Virus record (IMG/VR): IMGVR_UViG_3300009425_000015
Span: 1 to 64,000 of that record
DNA: 64,000 nt
DNA from: a virus
Reading direction: 5' to 3' (one strand)
Below, in pieces: positions 2,995 through 51,341 of the stretch; the first letter of the stretch is position 1, and each line of letters opens with the position of its first letter. The notes beneath the pieces were generated by a model, which saw nothing but the letters and a program-made list of their open reading frames with translations, made no database searches and was not told the origin of the DNA. A program made the position numbers and the translations under genes.

Positions 2995-3090
2995 TTATTC
3001 ATGCTCTATATCCTTTTTTAAATACTTTTTATTTCTTCTATCGGGACTTTCTATCGCGCCGAGGGCATTACGGTGTAGCCCTGAAGTCAT
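2995..3090 (-). CDS. Possible 31-residue basic microprotein
   Basis: A reading frame of 31 codons starting at the ATG at 3088-3090, with AAAGGAG about 14 bases upstream. The product is basic in its second half (RRNKKYLKK). The first 12 residues are repeated with two changes in copy 1 of the direct repeat. No homologue is recognised, and the long ribosome-site spacing makes it doubtful. Confidence 0.3.
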   Translation of the reverse strand: MTSGLHRNALGAIESPDRRNKKYLKKDIEHE

Positions 3091-3097
3091 CCAATTT
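3053..3097. repeat. 45-bp direct repeat, copy 2
   Basis: Partner of 2746-2790. It lies downstream of the promoter at 3179-3206 and covers the start of the 31-codon frame at 2995-3090. Confidence 0.6.
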
Positions 3098-3178
3098 ATT
3101 TACACTCCTTTCGAGTTAATAGGGTTAGTCATGACTAGCTCCAACTTGTTAAGGGGTATACCCTCAACTTCTGTATAC

Positions 3179-3206
3179 ATTATATCAAACTGAGCGAATA
3201 AGTCAA
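3179..3206 (-). promoter_or_regulatory. Sigma70-like promoter TTGACT-16-TATAAT
   Basis: -35 at 3201-3206, -10 at 3179-3184 on the minus strand. The transcript would begin with ACAGAAGTTGAGGGTATACCCC, which shares AGAAGTTGAG with the other promoter cassettes of this region and contains the GGTATACC palindrome. Confidence 0.65.
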
Positions 3207-3209
3207 GGA

Positions 3210-3450
3210 CTTATTTGCATTTATTTAATTTAATCCTCGCCCTAATTCGATGCTATGAATAAGAGCGTACATGATGCTCCGAGTATACCCCTCAAAGGGT
3301 GTGCATTTATTAACGGTGTAATTAGGTGTTGTCACGTGTTATCCGGTGGTGTATAAGGACACATGGCTAGCAGCACCATCGCCCCTACCATCTAAATACA
3401 TCCTAACAGTCAAACCGCGTAAAGTCTAGAGCAAAACACAACCACAAGCA
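3210..3450. other. Stretch without a convincing gene
   Basis: I see only very short frames here on either strand, none with a good ribosome site. It is AT-rich with one half-site of the GTATACC palindrome near 3287. It could be an untranslated leader or decayed coding sequence. Confidence 0.4.
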
Positions 3451-3507
3451 CTAATCATCATTATTAAAAACAATACAGATTATTAAAACAACCAACACTA
3501 TAAGCAC
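3451..3507 (-). CDS. Possible 18-residue hydrophobic microprotein
   Basis: Starts with GTG and has GGAG eight bases upstream. The product MLIVLVVLIICIVFNNDD is a single membrane-spanning stretch with an acidic tail. It follows two further membrane peptides (3511-3588 and 3591-3674). Such short frames arise by chance, so this remains tentative. Confidence 0.3.
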   Translation of the reverse strand: MLIVLVVLIICIVFNNDD

Positions 3508-3510
3508 ATG

Positions 3511-3588
3511 TCAACTCCGAGTCATTGTTAGGAGCACTAACAAAGCCAACAATACGTTAGTCGTTGCGGGGTGTGTCAGTATGTCCAT
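3511..3588 (-). CDS. Possible 25-residue membrane microprotein
   Basis: Starts two bases after the stop of 3591-3674. Residues 11-22 (TNVLLALLVLLT) would span a membrane. The ribosome site is weak, so expression would depend on coupling to the upstream frame. Confidence 0.33.
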   Translation of the reverse strand: MDILTHPATTNVLLALLVLLTMTRS

Positions 3589-3590
3589 CA

Positions 3591-3674
3591 CTATAAGATA
3601 ACAAAACTGAATAGAGCACCCAAAGAAACGCCGATGATGAATAGCATTAAACCGTCATGCTGTATACGACTCAT
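3591..3674 (-). CDS. 27-residue single-pass membrane peptide
   Basis: The ATG at 3672-3674 overlaps the TAA of gene 3674-3916 (TAATG) and has AAGGGG seven bases upstream. Residues 9-27 form one hydrophobic helix (LMLFIIGVSLGALFSFVIL) after a short polar head. Function unknown. The coupling and ribosome site make it a credible gene despite its size. Confidence 0.55.
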   Translation of the reverse strand: MSRIQHDGLMLFIIGVSLGALFSFVIL

Positions 3675-3916
3675 TATAGCACCCCTTCGATTGATGCATC
3701 ATTTAGGTGATGAATCCTAACTGAGTCTGTCATCGCGGCTAGGTGTGGTTCTCTACTAGGGCAGACTCCTAATGCATCCTTAATCTTTGCAATTGCTGAA
3801 TTGTCCCTCATAGTATAAGCCATATCAAGCGAACGCATTGCATATGCTCGTTGTGGCTTAGTAACGGCGTGAGGTGAATTGCATCCACAATGGACGGTAT
3901 AGAATCGCTTACTCAT
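3674..3916 (-). CDS. Hypothetical small protein with N-terminal Cys/His
   Basis: An 80-residue protein beginning MSKRFYTVHCGCNSPHAV. The CxC near residue 10 with nearby His might bind metal, but no domain is recognised. AAGGGG lies seven bases before the ATG, and the promoter at 3969-3996 is upstream. Confidence 0.55.
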   Translation of the reverse strand: MSKRFYTVHCGCNSPHAVTKPQRAYAMRSLDMAYTMRDNSAIAKIKDALGVCPSREPHLAAMTDSVRIHHLNDASIEGVL

Positions 3917-3968
3917 GTCTTAACCCCTTATAGGTTTTATTTATTGTTCTCTCAACTTCTATCCTTAT

Positions 3969-3996
3969 ACTATCACAACCATATGGAACGTGTCAA
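3969..3996 (-). promoter_or_regulatory. Sigma70-like promoter TTGACA-16-GATAGT
   Basis: -35 at 3991-3996 and -10 at 3969-3974 on the minus strand. The downstream bases include AGAAGTTGAGAGAAC, the conserved initial transcribed sequence of the cassette promoters. It overlaps the 3' end of gene 3973-4155. Confidence 0.5.
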
Positions 3997-4155
3997 GCGA
4001 TTCTTTGTACTATGCATGAAATTTCTTTGTCGGTTGCGCTTGCGCTCGCATGCCTTCCGATTGCTGGCAGGGGGTGGCACTGGTGCCATGGGTACAGTAT
4101 CGGCTGTATCGTCAATTGTTACGATTCGATTAAAGATATTGTTGATTGAACGCAT
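3973..4155 (-). CDS. Hypothetical basic protein
   Basis: A 60-residue protein with a Pro/Ala stretch (VPMAPVPPPAS) and a strongly basic C-terminal half. I start it at the ATG at 4153-4155, which has AGAGGA nine bases upstream. The in-frame ATG at 4185 has no ribosome site and lies inside the preceding small gene. Function unknown. Confidence 0.5.
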   Translation of the reverse strand: MRSINNIFNRIVTIDDTADTVPMAPVPPPASNRKACERKRNRQRNFMHSTKNRLTRSIWL

Positions 4156-4157
4156 GA

Positions 4158-4262
4158 TTATTTTCCTCTTTTTGTCTTTGCCCATGTAGTACGTAAAGTC
4201 TTTGCTTTCTTCGGTTTATTGCTCTTCGTCTTCCCTCGTTTGCCTTTCTTATTGCCTATCAT
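4158..4262 (-). CDS. 34-residue Lys/Arg-rich microprotein
   Basis: Starts at the ATG at 4260-4262, which shares a base with the TAA of gene 4262-4486. Sixteen of the 34 residues are Lys or Arg (GNKKGKRGKTKSNKPKKAK). It may bind nucleic acid. It ends just before the next gene, whose ribosome site AGAGGA lies in its last codons. Confidence 0.5.
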   Translation of the reverse strand: MIGNKKGKRGKTKSNKPKKAKTLRTTWAKTKRGK

Positions 4263-4486
4263 TATGGCGCACCGTCGCTAAAGTGAAAGGCGCTTAAGTC
4301 GCTATGCATATGTGCCAGCATCTTGATGGTGTTCTCAACTGCAATTTGTGCTTCGATACTGCGCCCACTGTGTTGATTATCATGCAATAGCCTTTGCACA
4401 CTGTTTTCAAATTCCATGGACATCACGCCGACTGTATCACCAACTTTAACTTGCGTCCAATACGAATCAATTAATTCACTATTCAT
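4262..4486 (-). CDS. Hypothetical small protein
   Basis: A 74-residue protein of unknown function with the short motif VKVGDTVGV at residues 13-21, recalling the GDLV family, but the remainder is helical. It overlaps the end of 4479-4655 by eight bases (ATGAATAG). Confidence 0.5.
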   Translation of the reverse strand: MNSELIDSYWTQVKVGDTVGVMSMEFENSVQRLLHDNQHSGRSIEAQIAVENTIKMLAHMHSDLSAFHFSDGAP

Positions 4487-4655
4487 CGTCTTCGCTTTCG
4501 TCTTCGCCCTTTGTGACGTCTAACTCTACTAGCTCGCTTACTTCGGCTTCAGGGTTATCATCAACGTCAATTTCTGCATCATCCCGGTATTCATCATCCC
4601 GGTTACGTATACGACTATAATCATTCTCGCTGAATAAGTCAAATAAATCTTTCAT
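4479..4655 (-). CDS. Hypothetical acidic protein
   Basis: A 58-residue protein; nearly half the residues in its second part are Asp or Glu, ending EDESEDDE. The ATG at 4655 has AAGGA seven bases upstream and follows the promoter at 4703-4731; the ATG at 4700 lies at the predicted start of transcription. Highly acidic small phage proteins sometimes act as DNA mimics, but nothing here shows that. Confidence 0.55.
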   Translation of the reverse strand: MKDLFDLFSENDYSRIRNRDDEYRDDAEIDVDDNPEAEVSELVELDVTKGEDESEDDE

Positions 4656-4702
4656 GTTTTTTTCCTTCTTTGTTTTTGTTTGTTCTCTCAACGTCTGCAA
4701 TC

Positions 4703-4731
4703 ATTCTATCTAAGCAGCGCGATAAAGTCAA
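4703..4731 (-). promoter_or_regulatory. Cassette promoter TTGACT-17-TAGAAT
   Basis: -35 at 4726-4731, -10 at 4703-4708. Upstream is the conserved block TTTACGATTAATTGAAA (about 4737-4755), and downstream TTGCAGACGTTGAGAG. Both flanks recur at 5671, 6021 and 6535. Confidence 0.7.
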
Positions 4732-4877
4732 CATGTTTTTCAATTAATCGTAAAAGCTCAATATTATCAACAAGATAAAATGAATGCTAGCCCAACCCCT
4801 CTAGCATTCTGGCATATTGTATGCCCCCACTGGTAACGGCGGGATTAATGTCACCAGAATTATTCACGCCTTATGTC

Positions 4878-5156
4878 TTACGCCTCCGGCTTAGCTAGCT
4901 TGTCAATATTAGCCTTGACAAATTCGGCAACCTTGCCCGACGTGAAAAGCTCGGAAACCTTCGGAAGCTCGGCAGTCTTAAGGGTGATAGGGAATTTACG
5001 AATGCCATAAATTGCCAAGTGTCCGTTCTTGGATACTCCGATACGTACCATCGTTTTCGCTTTCGCTCGCAATTCCTTAAGCTCGTTTTGCTGCGCTTCA
5101 AGCTCGGCAAGTCGTGAAAGAATGGTATCGTTGTTATTTGCAGTCGTCTTGCTCAT
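4878..5156 (-). CDS. Conserved small phage protein with N-terminal coiled coil
   Basis: A 92-residue protein. Residues 10-35 form a coiled coil (LSRLAELEAQQNELKELRAK), followed by a beta-rich segment VRIGVSKNGHLAIYGIRKFP. The latter resembles a short conserved domain that occurs in many large DNA phages and algal viruses (pattern KG-xxxxYGxxRFPxT), whose function is not known. AAAGG precedes the ATG at 5156. Two promoters lie upstream (5246 and 5334). Confidence 0.6.
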   Translation of the reverse strand: MSKTTANNNDTILSRLAELEAQQNELKELRAKAKTMVRIGVSKNGHLAIYGIRKFPITLKTAELPKVSELFTSGKVAEFVKANIDKLAKPEA

Positions 5157-5245
5157 GATTGAGCCTTTCATTCAGTGGCACGCATGCGCCGGTAATTGTT
5201 GATGCGGTAGCTCAGAGTCTACCCGCCTTCCTGTATTGTGTCCCT

Positions 5246-5274
5246 ATAATATCAGGGATAATTTAGTTTGTCAA
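5246..5274 (-). promoter_or_regulatory. Sigma70-like promoter TTGACA-17-TATTAT
   Basis: -35 at 5269-5274 and -10 at 5246-5251 on the minus strand, directed at gene 4878-5156. Confidence 0.55.
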
Positions 5275-5333
5275 GAGAAAAAATTTTCGGTTGAAAAAAA
5301 ACCGGCGATGTCGCTCTCCTAACTTGTGCATAC

Positions 5334-5361
5334 ATTCTATCAAGTATCGTTGAGAAGTCAA
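5334..5361 (-). promoter_or_regulatory. Cassette promoter TTGACT-16-TAGAAT
   Basis: -35 at 5356-5361, -10 at 5334-5339, preceded by the conserved block TTGAGGTTTTACGATT (5378-5393). It is the second promoter in front of gene 4878-5156. Confidence 0.6.
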
Positions 5362-5396
5362 GAAAAAAAACAAACAATCGTAAAACCTCAATTAAT

Positions 5397-5639
5397 TCAA
5401 ATGATTGTAAATGATACTTGACATGGTTTTGGTTTTCCTCCGTTTAACTTCAATTTCTTGATATAGTCCTGCAACCCCTGATACACTGAATCTATCCAAT
5501 ATTCGCCCTCTGCCTCCTCAATTAATTGTGATGCTTCCATGGTAGTCACTCCCATGTCCTCCAAAGAATCGCAGACTCCAGCGGCGATTGACTCGCCAAG
5601 GTACATTGCGCGCAATTGCTTATGCTTATCGTCGTTCAT
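5397..5639 (-). CDS. Hypothetical small acidic protein
   Basis: An 80-residue, mostly helical protein of unknown function. The start at 5637-5639 is chosen because GGAGG lies four bases upstream and because the longer frame would begin upstream of the predicted transcription start (about 5664). It is the sole gene of a promoter cassette. Confidence 0.55.
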   Translation of the reverse strand: MNDDKHKQLRAMYLGESIAAGVCDSLEDMGVTTMEASQLIEEAEGEYWIDSVYQGLQDYIKKLKLNGGKPKPCQVSFTII

Positions 5640-5670
5640 ATTGCCTCCATCGTTCTCAATTTGTGCAACC

Positions 5671-5699
5671 ATTATACGATATGGATTCAAGAAAGTCAA
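5671..5699 (-). promoter_or_regulatory. Cassette promoter TTGACT-17-TATAAT
   Basis: Consensus -35 (5694-5699) and -10 (5671-5676) with 17-base spacing, flanked upstream by ATTGAGGTTTTACGATTAAT (5711-5730) and downstream by TTGCACAAATTGAGAAC. Confidence 0.75.
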
Positions 5700-5764
5700 G
5701 GTTTATTTCAATTAATCGTAAAACCTCAATGATATGATAAACTTAACATGCATTCCCGTTCATG

Positions 5765-5965
5765 CTATTTAATCACCTCCATGTCCTCAATTAAATGTAT
5801 TTCATTTCCCCAAGGCATATATACATCAACGACTTTATATATCTCACAGTCTAAAACGCCGAACAATGAAACATTGTCTTGCGGTGTTGAAGCCCTTGGT
5901 TCCGACAGTAAGACGCCTACAGTACCGGGATGATAGTCACAACAAACAATGTCACCAATATTCAT
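5765..5965 (-). CDS. Small GDIV-type (SH3/KOW-like) protein
   Basis: A 66-residue protein beginning MNIGDIVCCDYHPGTVGVLL, the same layout as the MKVGDLV family at 14.5-20.2 kb: a short GD(L/I)V start followed by alternating beta residues. I infer a small SH3-like barrel; its partner is unknown. The start at 5965 is chosen because earlier codons lie upstream of the promoter start point. The ribosome site is weak (AAAGAAAG). Confidence 0.55.
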   Translation of the reverse strand: MNIGDIVCCDYHPGTVGVLLSEPRASTPQDNVSLFGVLDCEIYKVVDVYMPWGNEIHLIEDMEVIK

Positions 5966-6020
5966 ATAAACAACTTTCTTTCTGCTATCTGGAGCGTTGC
6001 TGCTCTCAACTTCTGCAATC

Positions 6021-6049
6021 ATTATTCGAAACGCCACAAAGAAAGTCAA
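6021..6049 (-). promoter_or_regulatory. Cassette promoter TTGACT-17-AATAAT
   Basis: -35 at 6044-6049, -10 at 6021-6026, with the conserved upstream block (6061-6080) and downstream TTGCAGAAGTTGAGAG. Confidence 0.7.
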
Positions 6050-6092
6050 GGTTTATTTCAATTAATCGTAAAACCTCAATAATAACGCTTGC

Positions 6093-6341
6093 TTAGTCAA
6101 CGACGTCTGCATGCATTCGAGCTTTGCCGACGTGGCAAGATGTTGTCTGTGAATGGTATTCATGCTTGCCTCCTGCTGTATGTTCTCTGAGAATCTTTGT
6201 ACCTGTAGACGGGCATGTATCACCTATACACAATCTATATGAATACAGTCTTTGTCCGTCCGTCCAAAAATTGCCGGTATGACTTTCGGCAGACTGTCCA
6301 ACGCTCCAGGCGCGGGGTATTTCACTGTTCGAGTATTTCAT
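6093..6341 (-). CDS. Conserved small phage protein (GNFWTDGQRLYSY type)
   Basis: An 82-residue protein with the motif GNFWTDGQRLYSYRLCIGDT. This pattern (FWTDGxxLYSYxLxIG) is common among small hypothetical proteins of tailed phages; no function has been assigned that I know of. It overlaps the end of the upstream gene by four bases (ATGA). Confidence 0.6.
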   Translation of the reverse strand: MKYSNSEIPRAWSVGQSAESHTGNFWTDGQRLYSYRLCIGDTCPSTGTKILREHTAGGKHEYHSQTTSCHVGKARMHADVVD

Positions 6342-6496
6342 ACGCTGCCAACTTTCTGCTTAATGTTATTTTCCATCATGCGTTTACGTATTCTTACGAA
6401 CGCTGCTTTGTCTACTTCTAGTGTCCTACCGTTCTTGTCTTCAATTAACCATAGTGGTTTTCTCTTGCTTTCCATTCGCTGCGCCATCATCATCAT
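6338..6496 (-). CDS. Hypothetical small basic protein
   Basis: A 52-residue basic protein. The start lies in a run of four ATG codons at 6485-6496 following AAAGGGG; the second or third ATG has the best spacing. Function unknown. First gene of the cassette driven by the promoter at 6535-6563. Confidence 0.5.
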   Translation of the reverse strand: MMMMAQRMESKRKPLWLIEDKNGRTLEVDKAAFVRIRKRMMENNIKQKVGSV

Positions 6497-6534
6497 TCGC
6501 CCCTTTATGTTTATTCGCCTCGACTTCTGCAACC

Positions 6535-6563
6535 ATTATACGAAACAGAATCGAGAAAGTCAA
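6535..6563 (-). promoter_or_regulatory. Cassette promoter TTGACT-17-TATAAT
   Basis: -35 at 6558-6563, -10 at 6535-6540. The upstream block ATTGAGGTTTTACGATTAAT (6574-6593) and downstream TTGCAGAAGTCGAG are conserved. Confidence 0.75.
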
Positions 6564-6598
6564 CGTGTTTTTCAATTAATCGTAAAACCTCAATGATT

Positions 6599-6838
6599 CT
6601 AGCCGTTTGAATTTCTCTTTCTTTTTGATACCGTACAATCTTTAAGGTATATTAGGCAACTATACAGAGTCTTTATCACGCCAGCGTCCACCACTGCCAA
6701 CTCTATAGTCGGATTTTCTTGAGGATGAGTATCACAGGCGTCGCCGACGGTTACGACAAACGCTGTCTTCTTATTCCACCATACGGAAGGCACCCTCTTA
6801 TCTAAATATATCATATCGCCGACGTTCAGACTATTCAT
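6599..6838 (-). CDS. Small GD-type (SH3/KOW-like) protein
   Basis: A 79-residue protein beginning MNSLNVGDMIYLDKRVPSVW, a member by pattern of the GDLV-like group scattered through the window. The ATG overlaps the final codons of the upstream gene (GATGAATAG). Confidence 0.5.
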   Translation of the reverse strand: MNSLNVGDMIYLDKRVPSVWWNKKTAFVVTVGDACDTHPQENPTIELAVVDAGVIKTLYSCLIYLKDCTVSKRKRNSNG

Positions 6839-6974
6839 CGCTCAATACCTTGTGCTTGATTTTTCGAGTATACTTCGCCTTATCCCTATGAACCTTAACG
6901 CCCCCACCATGCCGCTTTTGCAACGCGCTGGCGAAAGGGTTCCTGGCAGAAATGTATTTTCTTGTACGGCTCAT
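6831..6974 (-). CDS. 47-residue basic conserved phage protein
   Basis: The frame has GAGGA before the ATG (6972-6974) and overlaps both neighbours (ATGA at its start, ATGAATAG at its end). The product is very basic and contains RNPFASALQKRHGGGVKVHR. The pattern RNPxAxAL followed by Lys/Arg is typical of a small protein found in many tailed phages, of unknown function and possibly nucleic-acid binding. Confidence 0.6.
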   Translation of the reverse strand: MSRTRKYISARNPFASALQKRHGGGVKVHRDKAKYTRKIKHKVLSDE

Positions 6975-7156
6975 TTTGTTTCCTCAGTCGTTCGCTCATA
7001 TGGTGCGGTATAAGTGCGCTGTATACCGTCCCGGCATAACGACGCGGCTAGCTGCACTCGAGTTATTCCCTCTTGCGCCTCTTCATGCGTATCGTAAGCA
7101 CCGAATCTTTCTGTGCCGTACTCCTCAGAATAACTGTCAAAATACCATTCTGTCAT
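6971..7156 (-). CDS. Hypothetical small protein
   Basis: A 61-residue protein starting MTEWYFDSYSEEYG, with AAGGG upstream of the ATG. Function unknown. It is the first gene after a long leader that contains a 13-bp inverted repeat (7200-7257). Confidence 0.55.
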   Translation of the reverse strand: MTEWYFDSYSEEYGTERFGAYDTHEEAQEGITRVQLAASLCRDGIQRTYTAPYERTTEETK

Positions 7157-7199
7157 TTTTCTACCCTTGTCGTCATTTTCTTCGTTTTTCCATGAAAGT

Positions 7200-7257
7200 G
7201 GCGAAACGCTGCCACGGCATTAAATACCTAAACACCACGTCTTAGCAGCGTTTCGCC
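7200..7257 (-). promoter_or_regulatory. 13-bp inverted repeat in a 5' leader
   Basis: GGCGAAACGCTGC (7200-7212) and its exact inverted copy (7245-7257) flank a 32-base loop. The structure begins a few bases after the predicted transcription start of the promoter at 7271-7299 and ends about 45 bases before gene 6971-7156. Two very short frames (MEKRRK and MTTRVEK) follow in the leader. It could stabilise the mRNA or regulate translation. Confidence 0.55.
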
Positions 7258-7270
7258 AATTGATAACTAT

Positions 7271-7299
7271 ATTATACGAAACAAAGGATTCAAAGTCAA
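7271..7299 (-). promoter_or_regulatory. Sigma70-like promoter TTGACT-17-TATAAT
   Basis: -35 at 7294-7299 and -10 at 7271-7276 on the minus strand, both consensus-like. Drives the group 6599-7156. The start of transcript differs from the other cassettes. Confidence 0.7.
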
Positions 7300-9730: not shown

Positions 9731-10972
9731 TCACATGTCTTTATCTGGAATTGCTATTATGCGCTCATTTGTTGAAAAGTACGGACGTTTAGCATATTCC
9801 TCCGTCGTAATCCACATTCTCTGAGGCTTTGACGGTACAGGTTTAGGTGCCATCAAGTCAGTGAGAATGATATGTCCGTCAAAGTTTCTAGCGTTAACCC
9901 ACAAGGAGGGAGCATCGAAGCAAGTGCCGCCGCAACTAACTCGCTCCCATGTGCGGCGTTCGCCTTTCTTCCACACATATACCTTGTCTTCTGCAACCTG
10001 AGTATCGAAAGGAATTACCGTAAAGGTGGCAATGCTGGATAATTTATTCAACTCTGCGAAAAATGATGCCAGCATTCGATTACTCACAGAACCCGACTGA
10101 TCGATAGAAATAGCAACTCTGGCAACCCTATCAGACTTTTTACCAGAGTGAATATACGGATACCTACGGTTAATCCGTCTGATACTGGATTTGCGGTTTG
10201 CTTTCTGTGACGTCTTTATAAAGTATCGGAGTGTCTTTTTCCAATCAATGACACTCCGTAAACCCTTCATTATGTCTTCTCGGACAGATGCAGATACCGT
10301 ACCCCAACTGTTTGCCTTGGCAGCCTCTTCACTCGCCTGACGTACCACGTCCTTGAGTCTTTCTTTGGCTATCTCCTTCGTATCATTTGAAGCGTCTGCC
10401 CACATAGAATGCTCGTCAAGAGAGTCATAGTCTTCTATGGACGGTGATGGCTTCCCCGACGAGTCGCCTTCTTTTCCGTGTTCGGGCTTCGCGGGTGGTG
10501 CTGGCATATTCTTCATATACCATTCTGCACTCTTGCCAGACGGCAATTGCTCGAAGGGACTACCTAATACTCCAGGCTTGCAGCACCCTTCTGGCAAATT
10601 ATGTAAATGAGAGTTGATAGACAAATCTGTAGCAATATTCCACATTTTTGACATTTTTGCGCCTCCATCAACGAACGGCAGCCTGTCAGTTACATGCAGG
10701 AATACAATATGGTAAAATTCGTGTTTAAGTACATCCTTTTTCTCATCATCCGTCAACTGGGCGAAAAAATCTGGGTTATATAGCATCTCGAATTGAGCGC
10801 TCGTTGGGTTGACGCAAACCCCGGCAGTGGGTATGCTTTTACTTGGGCGTTTATCAACGCGCCGGGATATTGCTGCGAAAAATGGCTCATCCATGAGAAG
10901 GCGTGCCATGTGCAGGTTTAAGTCAAAGGCGCGAGGCTTAGAGACTTCCACTTCTTGTTGAATCCGAGACAT
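9731..10972 (-). CDS. VWA-domain protein with N-terminal HExxH metallopeptidase-like domain
   Basis: A 413-residue protein. The N-terminal part carries HEFYH (residues 84-88), a zinc metallopeptidase-type motif. The C-terminal part is a VWA-like domain with a complete MIDAS set: DQSGS near residue 290, then a GGTCF threonine and an ILTDL aspartate. This matches the family in which a putative metallopeptidase domain precedes a CoxE-like VWA domain. Such proteins usually pair with a MoxR-type AAA ATPase, and one is encoded immediately upstream (11143-12207). Together they may remodel or mature a protein complex. The target is unknown. GAGGT lies before the ATG. Confidence 0.8.
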   Translation of the reverse strand: MSRIQQEVEVSKPRAFDLNLHMARLLMDEPFFAAISRRVDKRPSKSIPTAGVCVNPTSAQFEMLYNPDFFAQLTDDEKKDVLKHEFYHIVFLHVTDRLPFVDGGAKMSKMWNIATDLSINSHLHNLPEGCCKPGVLGSPFEQLPSGKSAEWYMKNMPAPPAKPEHGKEGDSSGKPSPSIEDYDSLDEHSMWADASNDTKEIAKERLKDVVRQASEEAAKANSWGTVSASVREDIMKGLRSVIDWKKTLRYFIKTSQKANRKSSIRRINRRYPYIHSGKKSDRVARVAISIDQSGSVSNRMLASFFAELNKLSSIATFTVIPFDTQVAEDKVYVWKKGERRTWERVSCGGTCFDAPSLWVNARNFDGHIILTDLMAPKPVPSKPQRMWITTEEYAKRPYFSTNERIIAIPDKDM

Positions 10973-11150
10973 AGTAACACCTCAATTTTTTCGTTTTAAT
11001 TTTCTCATCTCTTACACAAAGTATATCCTCATTATACAATTGTGTCAATAGAAAAGCGCCGTTATTATTTAATTTCCTGTAAGCAGGAGTACCAACAACG
11101 CAACCAACCAGCGAAGAAACCAAGAGACATACGATGAATAATCTAATCAT
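10938..11150 (-). CDS. Small lipoprotein between MoxR and VWA genes
   Basis: 70 residues starting MIRLFIVCLLVSSLVGCVVG, a typical lipoprotein signal with lipobox LVGC (Cys at residue 16). The remaining 54 residues are polar. It overlaps the end of the MoxR gene and the start of the VWA gene, so it is in the same operon and may anchor or partner them. A role as an outer-membrane spanin component is another possibility. Confidence 0.55.
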   Translation of the reverse strand: MIRLFIVCLLVSSLVGCVVGTPAYRKLNNNGAFLLTQLYNEDILCVRDEKIKTKKLRCYYVSDSTRSGSL

Positions 11151-12207
11151 CAGTATCGCCTGCCAAGATTGTAACGATATAATCACTAACAGAACTACCG
11201 TCTACCTCTGCCTGGTGGAGCTTAATAGTATTATTAATATCACCAGCACCTAACACTGTCCACATTTTCATCGCAACCTCTGAAGGTAATGTTAGAAAAT
11301 ATCTGGCTAGATTGTTAACGTGCTCTTGAGGAAGCTCATCAGCAAAAGTATTTGCTCCAGCGAATTTATCAACGATGGCAGTGTGTTCATTAATTCCGAA
11401 GTTGGCTGTTCTTTCAATTTCACCCTTGATTAAAATATCCTCTACTGACACTTGCCTGTCATAAGTCGCAACAAAATCGTTAAACGATACGGCAGCCTCA
11501 AAGCCTACAAATGCGCTAGCGAGGGGATACAGCGGTGCTGTGGGTACCTCCCCATCCAACAGCTTAGAAGCGGTGAGACAGTCGCTTAAACGCTCCCACG
11601 AACGTCGTGAGGGGTATACCTTGTTTGGCTCAAAGTCATCGGAATGTTCTAGGTGGTTCCTATTGTGGTTAATAAAATCCCAGACTATAGTGTGGACTTT
11701 TCCACTAGCCCAAGTCATCCAGTCCTCTAACGAAGGTTCGATGTCAAAAACAGTCCACCTGTCTAATTCAGCAGGATCCATCTCGCCGACTTGGTATTGA
11801 GCACTGTGTTCTCCACCATTAACAGCAGCGAATACTAGCGTATCCTTATGCAGCGTGTGCCCATTCAACTTGCGACTATCTGTAAGCTCAAATATACCCT
11901 GGCGAACCTCCAGCGTTGCCCTGTCAACTTCGTCAAGAAAGAGAACCACCGGATTATCGCATGCTTGTTTGAACCAATCAGGCGGATTAAACTGTGTGCT
12001 GTTACCTTTCACCGAAGGAAGTCCAACCAGATCGCCTTCAGTCATCTGAGAAGCTCGGCGCTCAACGAGATTCATGCCGATTCGTTCGGCTGTTTGATAT
12101 ACCACTGTAGATTTGCCTATACCATGCCGCCCTCGCAAAAGGACTGGCTTGCGTACCGCAGTCACGTAATCCACAATTTCAGAAAAAGTCTTAAAGTCAA
12201 CTGCCAT
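11143..12207 (-). CDS. MoxR-type AAA+ ATPase
   Basis: A 354-residue ATPase with Walker A GRHGIGKS (near residue 27), Walker B VVLFLDEVD, a sensor-like AAVN and a downstream arginine (ELDRW). The order and spacing fit MoxR/RavA-type chaperone ATPases. These act with VWA proteins in metal insertion, complex assembly or peptidase control, and the VWA/HExxH gene is just downstream. TAGGAG lies seven bases upstream of the ATG. Confidence 0.85.
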   Translation of the reverse strand: MAVDFKTFSEIVDYVTAVRKPVLLRGRHGIGKSTVVYQTAERIGMNLVERRASQMTEGDLVGLPSVKGNSTQFNPPDWFKQACDNPVVLFLDEVDRATLEVRQGIFELTDSRKLNGHTLHKDTLVFAAVNGGEHSAQYQVGEMDPAELDRWTVFDIEPSLEDWMTWASGKVHTIVWDFINHNRNHLEHSDDFEPNKVYPSRRSWERLSDCLTASKLLDGEVPTAPLYPLASAFVGFEAAVSFNDFVATYDRQVSVEDILIKGEIERTANFGINEHTAIVDKFAGANTFADELPQEHVNNLARYFLTLPSEVAMKMWTVLGAGDINNTIKLHQAEVDGSSVSDYIVTILAGDTDD

Positions 12208-27016: not shown

Positions 27017-28897
27017 CTATGCTTCTTCAAACTCTGCATCAATGATATCGTCATCTTGCGAGTCTTGAGTTTGTTCTTCTGCTGGCTCTGCTTGTTGTGC
27101 TGCCTCATACATTTTCTGGGTTGTCGACTGAACTAAGGCAGTAAGAGAGTCAAACTCCGAATTAATTTCAGACGGGTTATCTGAACCCTGAAGTGCAGCC
27201 TTCGCAGAAGCTATCGCTGTTTCCATTTTTTCGATGGAGCCAGCTTCAAGCTTTTCAGAATTTTCATCCATGAGTTTGCGGGTTTGAAATACTAGGGACT
27301 CCAGAGAATTCCTCTTTTCTACGTTCTCTCTTTTTTGTTTGTCTTCCTCCGCGTAGCGCTTGGCGTCCTCTACCATGCGCTCGATGTCTTCTGCGGACAT
27401 CGATCCTGATCCCTGTATCTTTATCGACTGCTCTTTGGAAGTTGCCTTGTCCTTAGCAGAAACGCTAACAATGCCATTTGCATCGATATCGAAAGTTACT
27501 TCTATCTGAGGCACTCCGCGGGGTGCGGGTGGAATTCCATCCAGTTTAAAGACACCGAGCCTCTTGTTGTCTGCCGAAAACTCCCTCTCCCCTTGCAAAA
27601 CCTTAATGTCGACTGCTGGTTGGTTGTTCTCCGCAGTAGTGAATACCTGAGACTTCGAGCATGGAATAGTGGAATTCCTCTCTATCAGTCTTGTCATGAC
27701 GCCGCCCATGGTTTCTAAGCCTAGGGATAGGGGGGTGACGTCCAATAAGAGAATGTCTTTCACCTCTCCCGAAAAAACTCCTCCCTGTACCGCTGCGCCT
27801 AGGGCAACAACTTCGTCTGGATTCACCGATGAACTGGCGCTTTTTTCAAATAATTTCTCAACCGCCTGACGGACTAAAGGTATCCTAGTTGAACCTCCGA
27901 CGAGCAAGACTTCATCAATATCCTTGATAGAAGCTGACGCATCCTTCATTGCTTTTCGCACTGGATCTAGAGTCTTTTCTACCAGCTCATCTATCATTTG
28001 TTCAAACGTCGATCGAGTGAGAGAAACGTTCATATGCTTAGGGCCCGACGCATCAGCTGTCAGAAATGGCAGATTTATATCTGTCTGTTGCGCGCTTGAT
28101 AGTTCAATCTTTGCCTTCTCTGAAGCCTCTTTAAGCCTTTGCAACACCATCGGATCTCCAGATATGTCAACTCCCGTCTCCTTCTTGAATTCGCTCACAA
28201 GCCAATCAATTAAAATTTTATCAATATCGTCGCCGCCCAAATGAGTATCCCCGTTTGTACTCAACACTTCCACAACTCCGTCTGCGATGTCTAATATAGA
28301 AACATCGAACGTTCCTCCACCGAGATCATACACGGCTATCTTGCGCTCTTTTCCCTTGTCAAAGCCGCATGCCAGAGCTGCTGCAGTAGGTTCGTTGATA
28401 ATTCTCCTGACTTCCAGGCCTGCTATCTTTCCAGCATCCCTAGTTGCCTGACGCTGAGAGTCGCTGAAGTATGCCGGGACTGTTATAACAGCCTCTCTGA
28501 CTTCTTCCCCCAAGAAACTTTCCGCTGCTGCTTTGAGTTTTAAGAGCACTTGTGCGCTGATTTCCTGAGGGGCGTGCAACTTCTCGCTAGCTAGAACTTC
28601 ACACATTCCAGAAGAAGACTTCTTCACCGAGTAGGGCATGGACTCTGCTTCGGCTGATATGTCATCGTACTTCATACCCATAAATCTCTTTACTGAAAAA
28701 ATGGTATTTTGCGGGTTCGTGACTGCCTGCCTTCTGGCTGGACTGCCCACTAGCCTATCTCCTAATTTCGTATATGCAACCACTGACGGGGTTGTCCTCG
28801 CCCCCTCTTCGTTTGTAATTATCTGGGGAGTTCCAGACTCCATGACTGAAACGACACTGTTCGTTGTTCCTAAATCTATTCCTATAACCTTTGACAT
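27017..28897 (-). CDS. dnaK: Chaperone DnaK (Hsp70), full length
   Basis: 626 residues, close to bacterial DnaK (about 638). ATPase motifs are intact: DLGTTNS at residues 8-14, [12 protein letters not shown], and VGGSTRIP. The substrate-binding beta domain (from about residue 385) and the helical lid follow, ending in an acidic tail. Hsp70 binds exposed hydrophobic segments and folds or disassembles proteins using ATP. No DnaJ or GrpE gene is visible in the window, so it probably works with host co-chaperones. It has its own promoter at 28958-28985 and a strong ribosome site (AAGGAG). Rare in phages. Confidence 0.97.
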
Positions 28898-33470: not shown

Positions 33471-35045
33471 TTAGTCATCGCAGTCGACAATTGCGTGATT
33501 AGTTGTCAATAATGTACCAGAAACGGATACTGCATTCACTAGGGCGCAGCGGGCAACCTTAACAGGATCAATAACCCCGACAAGATACATATCAACCATG
33601 TCTCCTGTTGAGAAATTCATGCCAGTATCACCTGATTCATTCAGAATACTGTTGATTACAACGTCCTCGGACATTCCGCAGTTTAAAGCCATTTGTCTAA
33701 CCGGTGCCTGTAGCGCTTCCTTCACCACGGAAACCCCGATTGCTTGCTCTTCAGTGTCCGTTTCAACTGTCAGGTTCTCACTAATTCTCAACAAGGCGAT
33801 GCCGCCGCCGGGGATGACACCCTCTTGCTGCGCCGATCTCACCGCCTCAAGTGCGTCTTCAATTCTATGCTTCTTTTCTATCATTTCAATTTCTGTTGCG
33901 GCGCCAACCTTTATAACTGCGATACCACTAGCTAGCCTTGTAATCCTCTCCTGTACCCTCTCTGCGGCGAGGAGCGAGTCAGTCGTCTCCACCTCCCCCT
34001 TCAACATATCTATACGCTCCTCTGCCTTGTCAGCGTCACCGCGGCCTCCGACGATGGTGGTAAACCCTTTCGAGATCTCGATTGACTGAGCCGATCCGAA
34101 TTGTTGCATTTCAACGTTCTTAACATCGTCTCCTCGTGATTTCTCAAAATAATGCCCACCTGTGGCGATAGCTAAGTCGCTCATGATACCGCGGCGCTCC
34201 TCTCCATACCGAGGGGCTTTAATAGCTGCCACTTTCATAGTGCCTCTCATGGAATTCATGATTAACGCAGCAAGTGCTTGGCCAGAAATATCATCTGCGA
34301 CAATGACAAAAGGCTTGTTCTCCCGCGCAGCTATCTCTAGCGATGGAAGTATTTGCTCTACGTTTTCTATTTTCTCATTCACAATTAAGAACATCGGGTT
34401 TTCGTAATTCACAGTGCCGCGTCTTTCGTCTGTAACAAAAGCCCCGGCTGCGTAGCCTGCATCCATGCGAAAGCCCTCTTTTAATTCTAGCGTAGTTTCT
34501 ACTGAGCGTGCTTCTTCGATTGTTATAGCGCCATCTTTCCCGACTCTATCGACAGCCAGAGCAATAAGATTTCCTATCTCCAAATCCCCATTCGCGGATA
34601 TCGTCGCAATGTGTGACACGTCCTGTTGACTCTGTATGGGGCGCGAGGATTCCTTGAGCCTCTCAGACACCTTCGCTACGGCTTTGTCCATCCCTCTCTT
34701 TATTTCGATTGGCGAGGCGCCAGAAACCAAGTGTGCCATGGCAGACTTAAGTATTGCGCGAGCGAGCACAGTCGAAGTTGTCGTACCATCACCAGCATCA
34801 ACGTTTGTTTTCGCTGCTGCCTGCTTTACAATCTGCGCTCCCAAGTTTTCAAACTCATCCTCAAACGAAATGAACTTAGCAACAGTCACTCCGTCTTTAG
34901 TTATGTACGGCCTGCGGTTTTTCTCTTTAATGATAACGTTCCTTCCGCGTGGGCCCATCGTCGATGCCACGTTATCGGCTAAAGCATTAACACCTTTCAT
35001 TAGCTTCTCTCTTAAAGAAATTTTCGAATCATACTTTTTAGACAT
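33471..35045 (-). CDS. groL: Chaperonin GroEL
   Basis: 524 residues. Key GroEL motifs are seen: GPRGRNVII, DGVTVAKFI, DAGDGTTTSTVLARAIL (ATP site, near residue 85) and EGVIPGGGIALLR. The C-terminus ends just after the LLTTNHAIVD segment, so the flexible GGM tail of bacterial GroEL is absent. It folds proteins inside a double ring with a GroES cap. The phage encodes a GroES/gp31-like protein at 50042-50371, so both halves are present. Its promoter lies at 35079-35106. Confidence 0.97.
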   Translation of the reverse strand: MSKKYDSKISLREKLMKGVNALADNVASTMGPRGRNVIIKEKNRRPYITKDGVTVAKFISFEDEFENLGAQIVKQAAAKTNVDAGDGTTTSTVLARAILKSAMAHLVSGASPIEIKRGMDKAVAKVSERLKESSRPIQSQQDVSHIATISANGDLEIGNLIALAVDRVGKDGAITIEEARSVETTLELKEGFRMDAGYAAGAFVTDERRGTVNYENPMFLIVNEKIENVEQILPSLEIAARENKPFVIVADDISGQALAALIMNSMRGTMKVAAIKAPRYGEERRGIMSDLAIATGGHYFEKSRGDDVKNVEMQQFGSAQSIEISKGFTTIVGGRGDADKAEERIDMLKGEVETTDSLLAAERVQERITRLASGIAVIKVGAATEIEMIEKKHRIEDALEAVRSAQQEGVIPGGGIALLRISENLTVETDTEEQAIGVSVVKEALQAPVRQMALNCGMSEDVVINSILNESGDTGMNFSTGDMVDMYLVGVIDPVKVARCALVNAVSVSGTLLTTNHAIVDCDD

Positions 35046-50689: not shown

Positions 50690-50718
50690 ATATTAGCACT
50701 AATTTATGAAAATATCAA
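50690..50718 (-). promoter_or_regulatory. Sigma70-like promoter TTGATA-17-TAATAT
   Basis: -35 at 50713-50718, -10 at 50690-50695 on the minus strand; moderate match. It overlaps the stop of 50715-51341 and faces 50364-50657. Confidence 0.5.
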
Positions 50719-51341
50719 GTATTTTTTAATACTTTTTTGGCAATTGCTTTAACTGCCATCCTTTCGTTCTTCGAAAGCTTCTTATATGTCTCGAGCCCTT
50801 CGCCAAAAGTGAAGGGGCGGTTTTTAATTTTTGTCATGAACTCTTTCTCTCTACCGAAATCGCGTCGGCCGACTGCTACCTTCTTACCATACCCTGGAAA
50901 CTCAGAATTGTTGGTACCATACAAATAAGCTCCTTCTCCGCCTTGTGGGATCACCAACACTGAGTCTTGGCAATATTTTTCACCCAAAGTTGTTATGGAA
51001 TGCACAAAGCTAGGATCATCGTTGAGGTTAACCACGAAATAGCTATCTTCGCTTACTTCGAATGCTTCGGGCGTATCATAGTCCTCGATGTAGGAGCCAT
51101 TCGCTTTCGTAACTCCGTATCCCAGAGATAAGAGTGTTGCCTTCAAGTCACGATTCCTTGTGAGGTTAGTGTCTTCCTCCGAAGGGTAATCTGTGCCATC
51201 TGCGCACTTGCTAGCATCTGAAATATCTCCCCTGAAAGCTGTTATTGTTGCAGTTTCATGCTTTTCCATATGTGAGTGTACACGTGTTAAAGAAGACTCA
51301 GACAAAAACTTCCTCCAGACTCCCAATACTGTTGACATCAT
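50715..51341 (-). CDS. Conserved T4-like phage protein of unknown function
   Basis: 208 residues. Blocks SHMEKHETATITAFRGDISD, GYGVTKANGSYIEDY, PGYGKKVAVGRRDFG and FMTKIKNRPF recur in marine T4-like phages. Function unknown. GGAG lies eight bases before the ATG, which overlaps the upstream stop (ATGA). Confidence 0.58.
   Translation of the reverse strand: MMSTVLGVWRKFLSESSLTRVHSHMEKHETATITAFRGDISDASKCADGTDYPSEEDTNLTRNRDLKATLLSLGYGVTKANGSYIEDYDTPEAFEVSEDSYFVVNLNDDPSFVHSITTLGEKYCQDSVLVIPQGGEGAYLYGTNNSEFPGYGKKVAVGRRDFGREKEFMTKIKNRPFTFGEGLETYKKLSKNERMAVKAIAKKVLKNT

Follow-up and report, generated by a model that had tools for sequence, protein, structure and literature searches.

Candidate upstream activating site shared by strong sigma70-type promoters in the small-gene region of an uncultured myovirus

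Upstream block and promoter core

Five promoters in a cluster of tiny genes share a 24-nt block, set at a fixed distance upstream of the -35 hexamer. They lie in the window analysed here, the first 64 kb (64,000 nucleotides) of the IMG/VR virus record IMGVR_UViG_3300009425_000015, which totals 80,307 bases. The region displays separable modules, fixed spacing, unequal conservation, copying and gene turnover, and other phages of the family carry a different block in the same zone. We lean towards reading these as strong sigma70-type promoters, probably early ones, whose upstream activating site is specific to the lineage and which would have spread with new small genes through a hypervariable region.

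All seven promoter positions of the original prediction (3179, 3969, 4703, 5334, 5671, 6021 and 6535) were borne out on the minus strand, each being named for the last base of its -10 (Table 1). The promoters are of sigma70 type (hexamers near TTGACA and TATAAT, 16-18 bp apart), although 3969 is so only weakly. The predicted core stood as far as the -35 (TTGACT at six, TTGACA at 3969) and the spacers of 16-17 nt were concerned, but the -10 of 3969 is weak (GATAGT or TAGTAT). Each promoter had been assigned one to three tiny genes, which holds roughly; however, 4703 precedes four small open reading frames (ORFs), and 5334 runs into a further promoter at 5274.

The predicted upstream block (ATTGAGGTTTTACGATTAATTGAAA) was confirmed at 6535, 6021, 5671, 5334 and 4703, at a fixed distance from TTGACT. 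Searched for as TTGAGGTTTTACGATTAAT, it was found in five copies, all on the minus strand, with 0, 0, 0, 1 and 2 mismatches (0.01 copies expected from dinucleotide shuffles), and no further copy was present in the 80.3-kb record. The block starts 31 nt before the -35 in all five (TTGAGG 30 nt before), at roughly -66 to -43. As this distance is constant while one of the five promoters has a 16-nt spacer and four have 17 nt, the block is anchored to the -35. It is A/T-rich yet has invariant G/C positions (ACG, GAG), and is asymmetric and non-palindromic. A hairpin inside the block (AGGTTT...AAACCT) was considered and rejected, being present at 5671 and 6021 only.

Alignment of the five promoters gave identities of 0.92 for the block and 0.37 for the sequence preceding it. 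The 7-nt gap stood at 0.46, the -35 at 1.00, the spacer at 0.39, the -10 at 0.83 and the 18 nt that follow the -10 at 0.73, with 0.24 further on; the downstream genes were at chance similarity. The conservation of the block above gap and spacer was reached in none of 100,000 permutations, and that of the start region had a p value of 0.00014 (permutation). Because both are far better conserved than the spacer or the downstream genes, the block and the start region look selected. A coding origin of the repeat, in which an ATG overlapping TATAATG would open a peptide family M(V/I)AEVE, is very improbable: the reading frame does continue into the gene behind 5671 and 6021, but at 4703, 5334 and 6535 it meets a stop or is in another frame, it is absent at 7271 and 3969, and the ATG has no Shine-Dalgarno sequence before it and lies upstream of the expected transcription start.

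Start region

The promoters had also been said to share their early transcribed bases. Five of the seven are indeed close to TTGCAGAAGTTGAGAG, but 5334 and 3969 match more weakly, in part and by eye (3969 retains AGAAGTTGAGAG). The 16-mer is exact at 6021 only, with one mismatch at 4703 and three at 3179, 5671 and 6535; six sites lie within three mismatches, against 0.9 expected. An exact search for the start region gave no match. By polymerase identity, the near relatives in IMG/VR are G001 and G002 (90%) and G005 (78%), and starts of the TTGAG form resembling those of the window occur in all three. The block and the start region are separable modules: the block is missing from 3179 and 3969, which do have the start region, and in G005 each occurs without the other. 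The orthologue of the gene behind 3969, with its promoter, is found in G001/G002, where a reverse-oriented block-like sequence (TTAATCGTGAAA / CAATCGTGAAA) was observed before it.

Among 185 de-duplicated promoters of the wider family, the zone after the -10 has A at position 7 (63%) and A at 9-10, followed by a Shine-Dalgarno sequence, AAGGA being present in 62 of the 185 against 4.6 expected. Since the family-wide zone is thus an A-rich start and then a Shine-Dalgarno sequence, the window's GAAGTTGAGAG (the TTGAG form) looks like a close-clade or lineage variant of a short A/G-rich leader. Most cassette genes have a further, proper ribosome site closer to the ATG.

These observations bear on the suggestion in the original prediction of an RNA-level signal, whether a regulatory leader, a stability element or an antitermination site. 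The start region is conserved above the spacer, it occurs at the block-less promoters 3179 and 3969, and similar starts recur in the relatives, all of which such a signal would explain. However, the zone has the family-wide composition given above, no shared fold was found among the leaders, and a Rfam scan gave a single match, the tRNA. The suggestion is therefore not favoured; a separate RNA signal is not needed, and we hold it to be rather improbable.

Upstream zone in related phages

No match to the cassette beyond noise was found in known phages. When IMG/VR was searched for the block as a pattern, the exact spacing was found in two relatives, L131 and L136; all remaining matches were copies of a single unrelated sequence. 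With the conserved 82-amino-acid early protein as query, an alignment-based search gathered 55 early regions; no homologue of this protein was found in phage records, and a single-protein search with the 92-amino-acid early gene found nothing.

In the closest clade, the core TTTYACG lies exactly 24 nt before the -35 once in L227 and twice in L230. These three promoters compare with 0.03 expected, and none of 2000 simulations reached three. The core was also seen 23 and 34 nt before the -35 in L239, where the promoter with the 23-nt offset is orthologous to that of L227, and a related TTCACGATT lies 14 nt before the -35 in L222. The cases at 34 and 14 nt, about one helical turn away, are suggestive only.

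In a more distant clade, TGACA-N6-TGACA stands 25 and 14 nt upstream of the -35, with 56 pairs at 11-bp spacing in 16 genomes; this 11-bp direct repeat (TTGACA-N5-TTGACA) stands upstream of many early promoters (L238, L240, L245, L252-L268, L124), and one exact form of it occurs in 66 IMG/VR stretches. It is unrelated to the block and occupies the same upstream zone. No peak at 11-bp spacing was seen in the near group. An 11-bp direct repeat is the geometry of OmpR/PhoB-family sites, a likeness that is only a lead. After removal of near-identical promoters of one genome, the similarity of the upstream zone within genomes was 0.44, against 0.32 with permuted labels (maximum 0.35), a comparison in which common descent of promoters within a genome is not fully controlled.

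Copying and gene turnover

The original prediction of copied regulatory cassettes holds for at least three copies. A repeat of 42 nt is identical at 6021 and 5671, and clear similarity of the spacer (0.59-0.71) is confined to the trio 6535/6021/5671, whose genes are lineage-specific. Each of these three promoters, with its gene, is missing at the corresponding place in G001/G002; for 6535, the promoter and its 52-amino-acid gene are absent between orthologous neighbours. The 5671 gene has its homologue at a different place in the early region of G005; the 6021 gene has one at a different place in G009. A gene behind 4703 has an orthologue in G001/G002 without a comparable promoter. Promoter 5334 is old, with an orthologue in G001/G002 that lacks the block; its left half carries the block in this genome only. 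Near-identical duplications of promoter plus gene are found in relatives at L231 6056/6487 (single in L230) and L228 2043/2979, and these are live examples of cassette copying. These comparisons and duplications therefore indicate a region of rapid small-gene turnover, with cassettes travelling with genes.

The block could then be functionless, part of a recombination unit that duplicates with genes and whose copies are alike through youth alone. The 42-nt repeat and the duplicated units in L231 and L228 are what this would produce. Young copies should, however, be equally alike in spacer and block, and the identities found were 0.39 and 0.92; the core is also found at this offset in other phages, where different genes follow it. 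We thus regard purely passive copying as unlikely.

Proposed mechanism

From these features we infer the polymerase used, the timing, the presence of a binding protein and the effect on promoter strength. The hypervariable cluster of tiny genes would be read from strong promoters of the host housekeeping (sigma70-type) polymerase, most likely early in infection; the immediate-early timing of the original prediction is plausible for near-consensus host-type promoters before tiny accessory genes. The block would be an upstream activating site that helps recruit polymerase, either bound by a sequence-specific activator (host or phage) or acting as a specialised UP-like contact for the alpha subunit of polymerase. 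The conserved discriminator and the first ~12 transcribed bases may set open-complex stability, promoter escape and the A-rich leader. New small genes arriving with a cassette copy would be co-regulated at once, and after copying, selection would keep the block, the hexamers and the start region, while the spacer and the coding sequence drift.

A protein-DNA contact upstream of polymerase is suggested by three features: the block is anchored to the -35, it has invariant G/C positions, and its core recurs at a single offset. The common regulator that had been predicted is thereby supported indirectly, at the DNA level, by the fixed distance of the block and by the core at the same offset elsewhere. 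The different repeat in the same zone of the distant clade is what a changed trans-acting partner would leave.

The block might instead be an operator for a phage repressor that shuts off the early genes. A regulator encoded by the phage would be expected to have a site specific to its lineage, and in SIRV2 the repressor Aca8 has been proposed to bind the virus-specific early motif (PMC11065993). Repressor sites commonly overlap the -35/-10 or the start, whereas the block is wholly upstream, its fixed spacing to the -35 favours polymerase contact, and Pfam offered no candidate helix-turn-helix gene in the early region. This reading ranks second, behind an activator or alpha-subunit contact, and seems to us unlikely.

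Several points weigh against an upstream activating site. Three of the five block copies are recent, and the copies are therefore not fully independent. The full block is limited to five copies in one genome, and two ancestral promoters, 3969 and 7271, lack it. Its A/T-richness is compatible with a plain UP element. No helix-turn-helix family was found by Pfam among the 59 early-region ORFs, although small or novel folds would escape such a scan. The phage Hsp70 is 56-61% identical to those of many bacterial phyla and is uninformative on the host.

More tentatively, and with some doubt, the early promoters of this phage group may combine a standard core with an exchangeable docking site upstream of it, which would be TTGAGGTTTYACGATTAAT in one clade and TTGACA-N5-TTGACA in another. 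The accessory-gene battery would then be plugged into different trans-acting activators, possibly host-encoded, with the state of the host setting the early programme. If an upstream activating site is indeed present, the block would offer a way to list the early genes under common control, which are likely to act in host takeover or anti-defence, in an uncultured myovirus group; such listing has already been done for archaeal viruses. How newly acquired phage genes become regulated at once, and whether one swap of the upstream site re-targets a whole phage early regulon, would become testable questions.

Other features of the region and the genome

An eighth strong promoter, 7271, has neither the block nor the conserved start region. 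Its transcript would start with a very stable hairpin within 7190-7264 on the minus strand (GGCGAAACGCTGC...GCAGCGTTTCGCC; -33 kcal/mol, z -5.2), ahead of a 61-amino-acid gene without homologues, which raises the question of a 5' protection element or a small RNA. Between 5334 and the tandem promoter 5274 (5246-5361, minus strand) there is a terminator-like hairpin (5288-5304) with a T-run. The same tandem-plus-hairpin layout precedes the orthologous gene in G001/G002 (L120 10394-10482), and its retention suggests that a short RNA, about 50-60 nt long, is conserved. No homologue was found in a search with the 52-amino-acid ORF behind 6535. As a separate observation, two tiny ORFs just downstream of the cassettes share a 50-nt direct repeat at their coding ends (Table 1).

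The minus strand carries nearly all genes and every promoter discussed. The record encodes a DnaE-type polymerase (about 30% identical to that of any cultured phage), DnaB helicase, class II ribonucleotide reductase, a T4-gp32-like protein, Hsp70 and GroEL. It also encodes T4-type baseplate, tail-tube and sheath proteins, and the phage is therefore a myovirus. No DNA-level match to the first 12 kb was found in the phage collection. A small sigma-70 region 4 protein might serve later promoters as a phage sigma or sigma-like factor, and together with the T4-type structural genes it fits separate promoters for later genes. A candidate anti-restriction enzyme and a MoxR-type ATPase were also noted (Table 1).

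Table 1. Positions of the promoters and of other features in the window (aa, amino acids)
Feature	Position	Strand	Elements	Downstream genes or remarks
Cassette P6535	6517..6594	minus	Block 6571-6594; -35 TTGACT 6558-6563; -10 TATAAT 6535-6540; discriminator/early transcribed part 6517-6534	52-aa ORF 6338-6496, then 82-aa ORF 6093-6341
Cassette P6021	6003..6080	minus	Block 6057-6080; -35 6044-6049; -10 AATAAT 6021-6026; early transcribed 6003-6020, exact TTGCAGAAGTTGAGAG	66-aa ORF 5765-5965
Cassette P5671	5653..5730	minus	Block 5707-5730; -35 5694-5699; -10 TATAAT 5671-5676	80-aa ORF 5397-5639
Cassette P5334	5316..5392	minus	Block 5369-5392, right end diverged; -35 5356-5361; 16-nt spacer; -10 TAGAAT 5334-5339	
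Cassette P4703	4685..4762	minus	Block 4739-4762; -35 4726-4731; -10 TAGAAT 4703-4708	ORFs 4479-4655, 4262-4486, 4158-4262, 3973-4149
P3969, without block	3945..3996	minus	-35 TTGACA 3991-3996; weak -10; early transcribed AGAAGTTGAGAG	ORF 3674-3916
P3179, without block	3161..3206	minus	TTGACT; 16-nt spacer; TATAAT; early transcribed CAGAAGTTGAGGG	
P7271, eighth strong promoter	7271..7299	minus	Without block or conserved start region	61-aa gene
P5274, tandem promoter	5246..5274	minus	87 nt downstream of P5334	92-aa ORF 4878-5156
Sigma-70 region 4 protein, 85 aa	38497-38754	minus		Pfam E 1e-10
Full-length Hsp70 and GroEL-type chaperonin in one phage	27017-28897 and 33471-35045	minus		
S-adenosylmethionine lyase family protein	50715-51341	minus		Pfam E 7e-11; candidate anti-restriction enzyme
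MoxR-type AAA ATPase adjoining DUF2201/VWA protein	9731-12207	minus		46-80% identical in related phages
50-nt direct repeat, 92% identical	2746-2795 and 3052-3101			Coding ends of two tiny ORFs

Comparison with known systems

Taken by themselves, the promoters belong to the ordinary sigma70 type. In behaviour, the nearest systems appear to be the virus-specific early motif of SIRV2 and, in part, the PeSL cassettes of T4-type phages. The latter are reportedly the subject of Arbiol 2010 and Comeau 2014.

In SIRV2 and other rudiviruses, which infect archaea, a long conserved stretch surrounds the strong core promoters of many small accessory genes within one virus. Viruses resemble each other in the core and differ in the flanks; early timing was measured and the repressor Aca8 proposed (PMC11065993). 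The likeness lies in a long sequence around the core that is common to several small genes of one genome and differs between viruses. The promoters there are, however, of the archaeal TATA/BRE type, whereas those here are bacterial -35/-10 promoters.

PeSLs are described as repeated composite promoter-terminator motifs in regions of intense gene shuffling (PMC4503421, PMC3950731). A repeated early-type promoter in a gene-shuffling region, with cassette plus gene gained and lost, is to that extent shared. The block cassettes differ in having no terminator next to the promoter, their conserved extra part being the upstream block. The only stem-loop abutting a promoter lies between 5334 and 5274, of which 5274 has no block; a terminator-like hairpin is otherwise seen only near 4703, some 50 nt upstream of it. 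As the stem-loop that defines PeSLs was tested for and does not accompany the block cassettes, they were not classed as PeSLs. As an observation apart, promoters abutting a hairpin and T-run (such as GCGATTTTTTTTCAATTCGCGGTATTTTTTTC-TTGAC) occur in G009 (L126 10784 and 11816) and at L226 8273, and form a truly PeSL-like promoter-terminator composite.

Early promoters of T4-like phages are near-consensus, of the host-polymerase type and conserved beyond the hexamers, as in the window; many precede novel ORFs, and the consensus depends on the phage (PMC2988021, PMC1524935). They have an A-rich UP region next to the -35, whereas the 24-nt block with its GAG and ACG lies further upstream; UP elements, contacted by the C-terminal domain of the alpha subunit (alpha-CTD), are A/T-rich tracts at about -40 to -60 (PMC2988021). 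Kayvirus has dozens of strong sigma70-type promoters (TTGACW, 17-bp spacer) for small host-takeover genes and a separate late class, which resembles the many such promoters reading small genes here; the sections of that account considered describe extended -10 and up-element preferences, and a fixed block of this kind was not met in them (PMC7698491). Finally, the ESAS/SAS of cluster K mycobacteriophages are repeated non-coding sites before many genes, likely protein-binding, with a subcluster-specific consensus (PMC3203893). They are comparable in this variation by lineage, but they are 17-bp imperfect inverted repeats at translation starts, whereas the block is asymmetric, set by the -35 and well upstream of the start codons.

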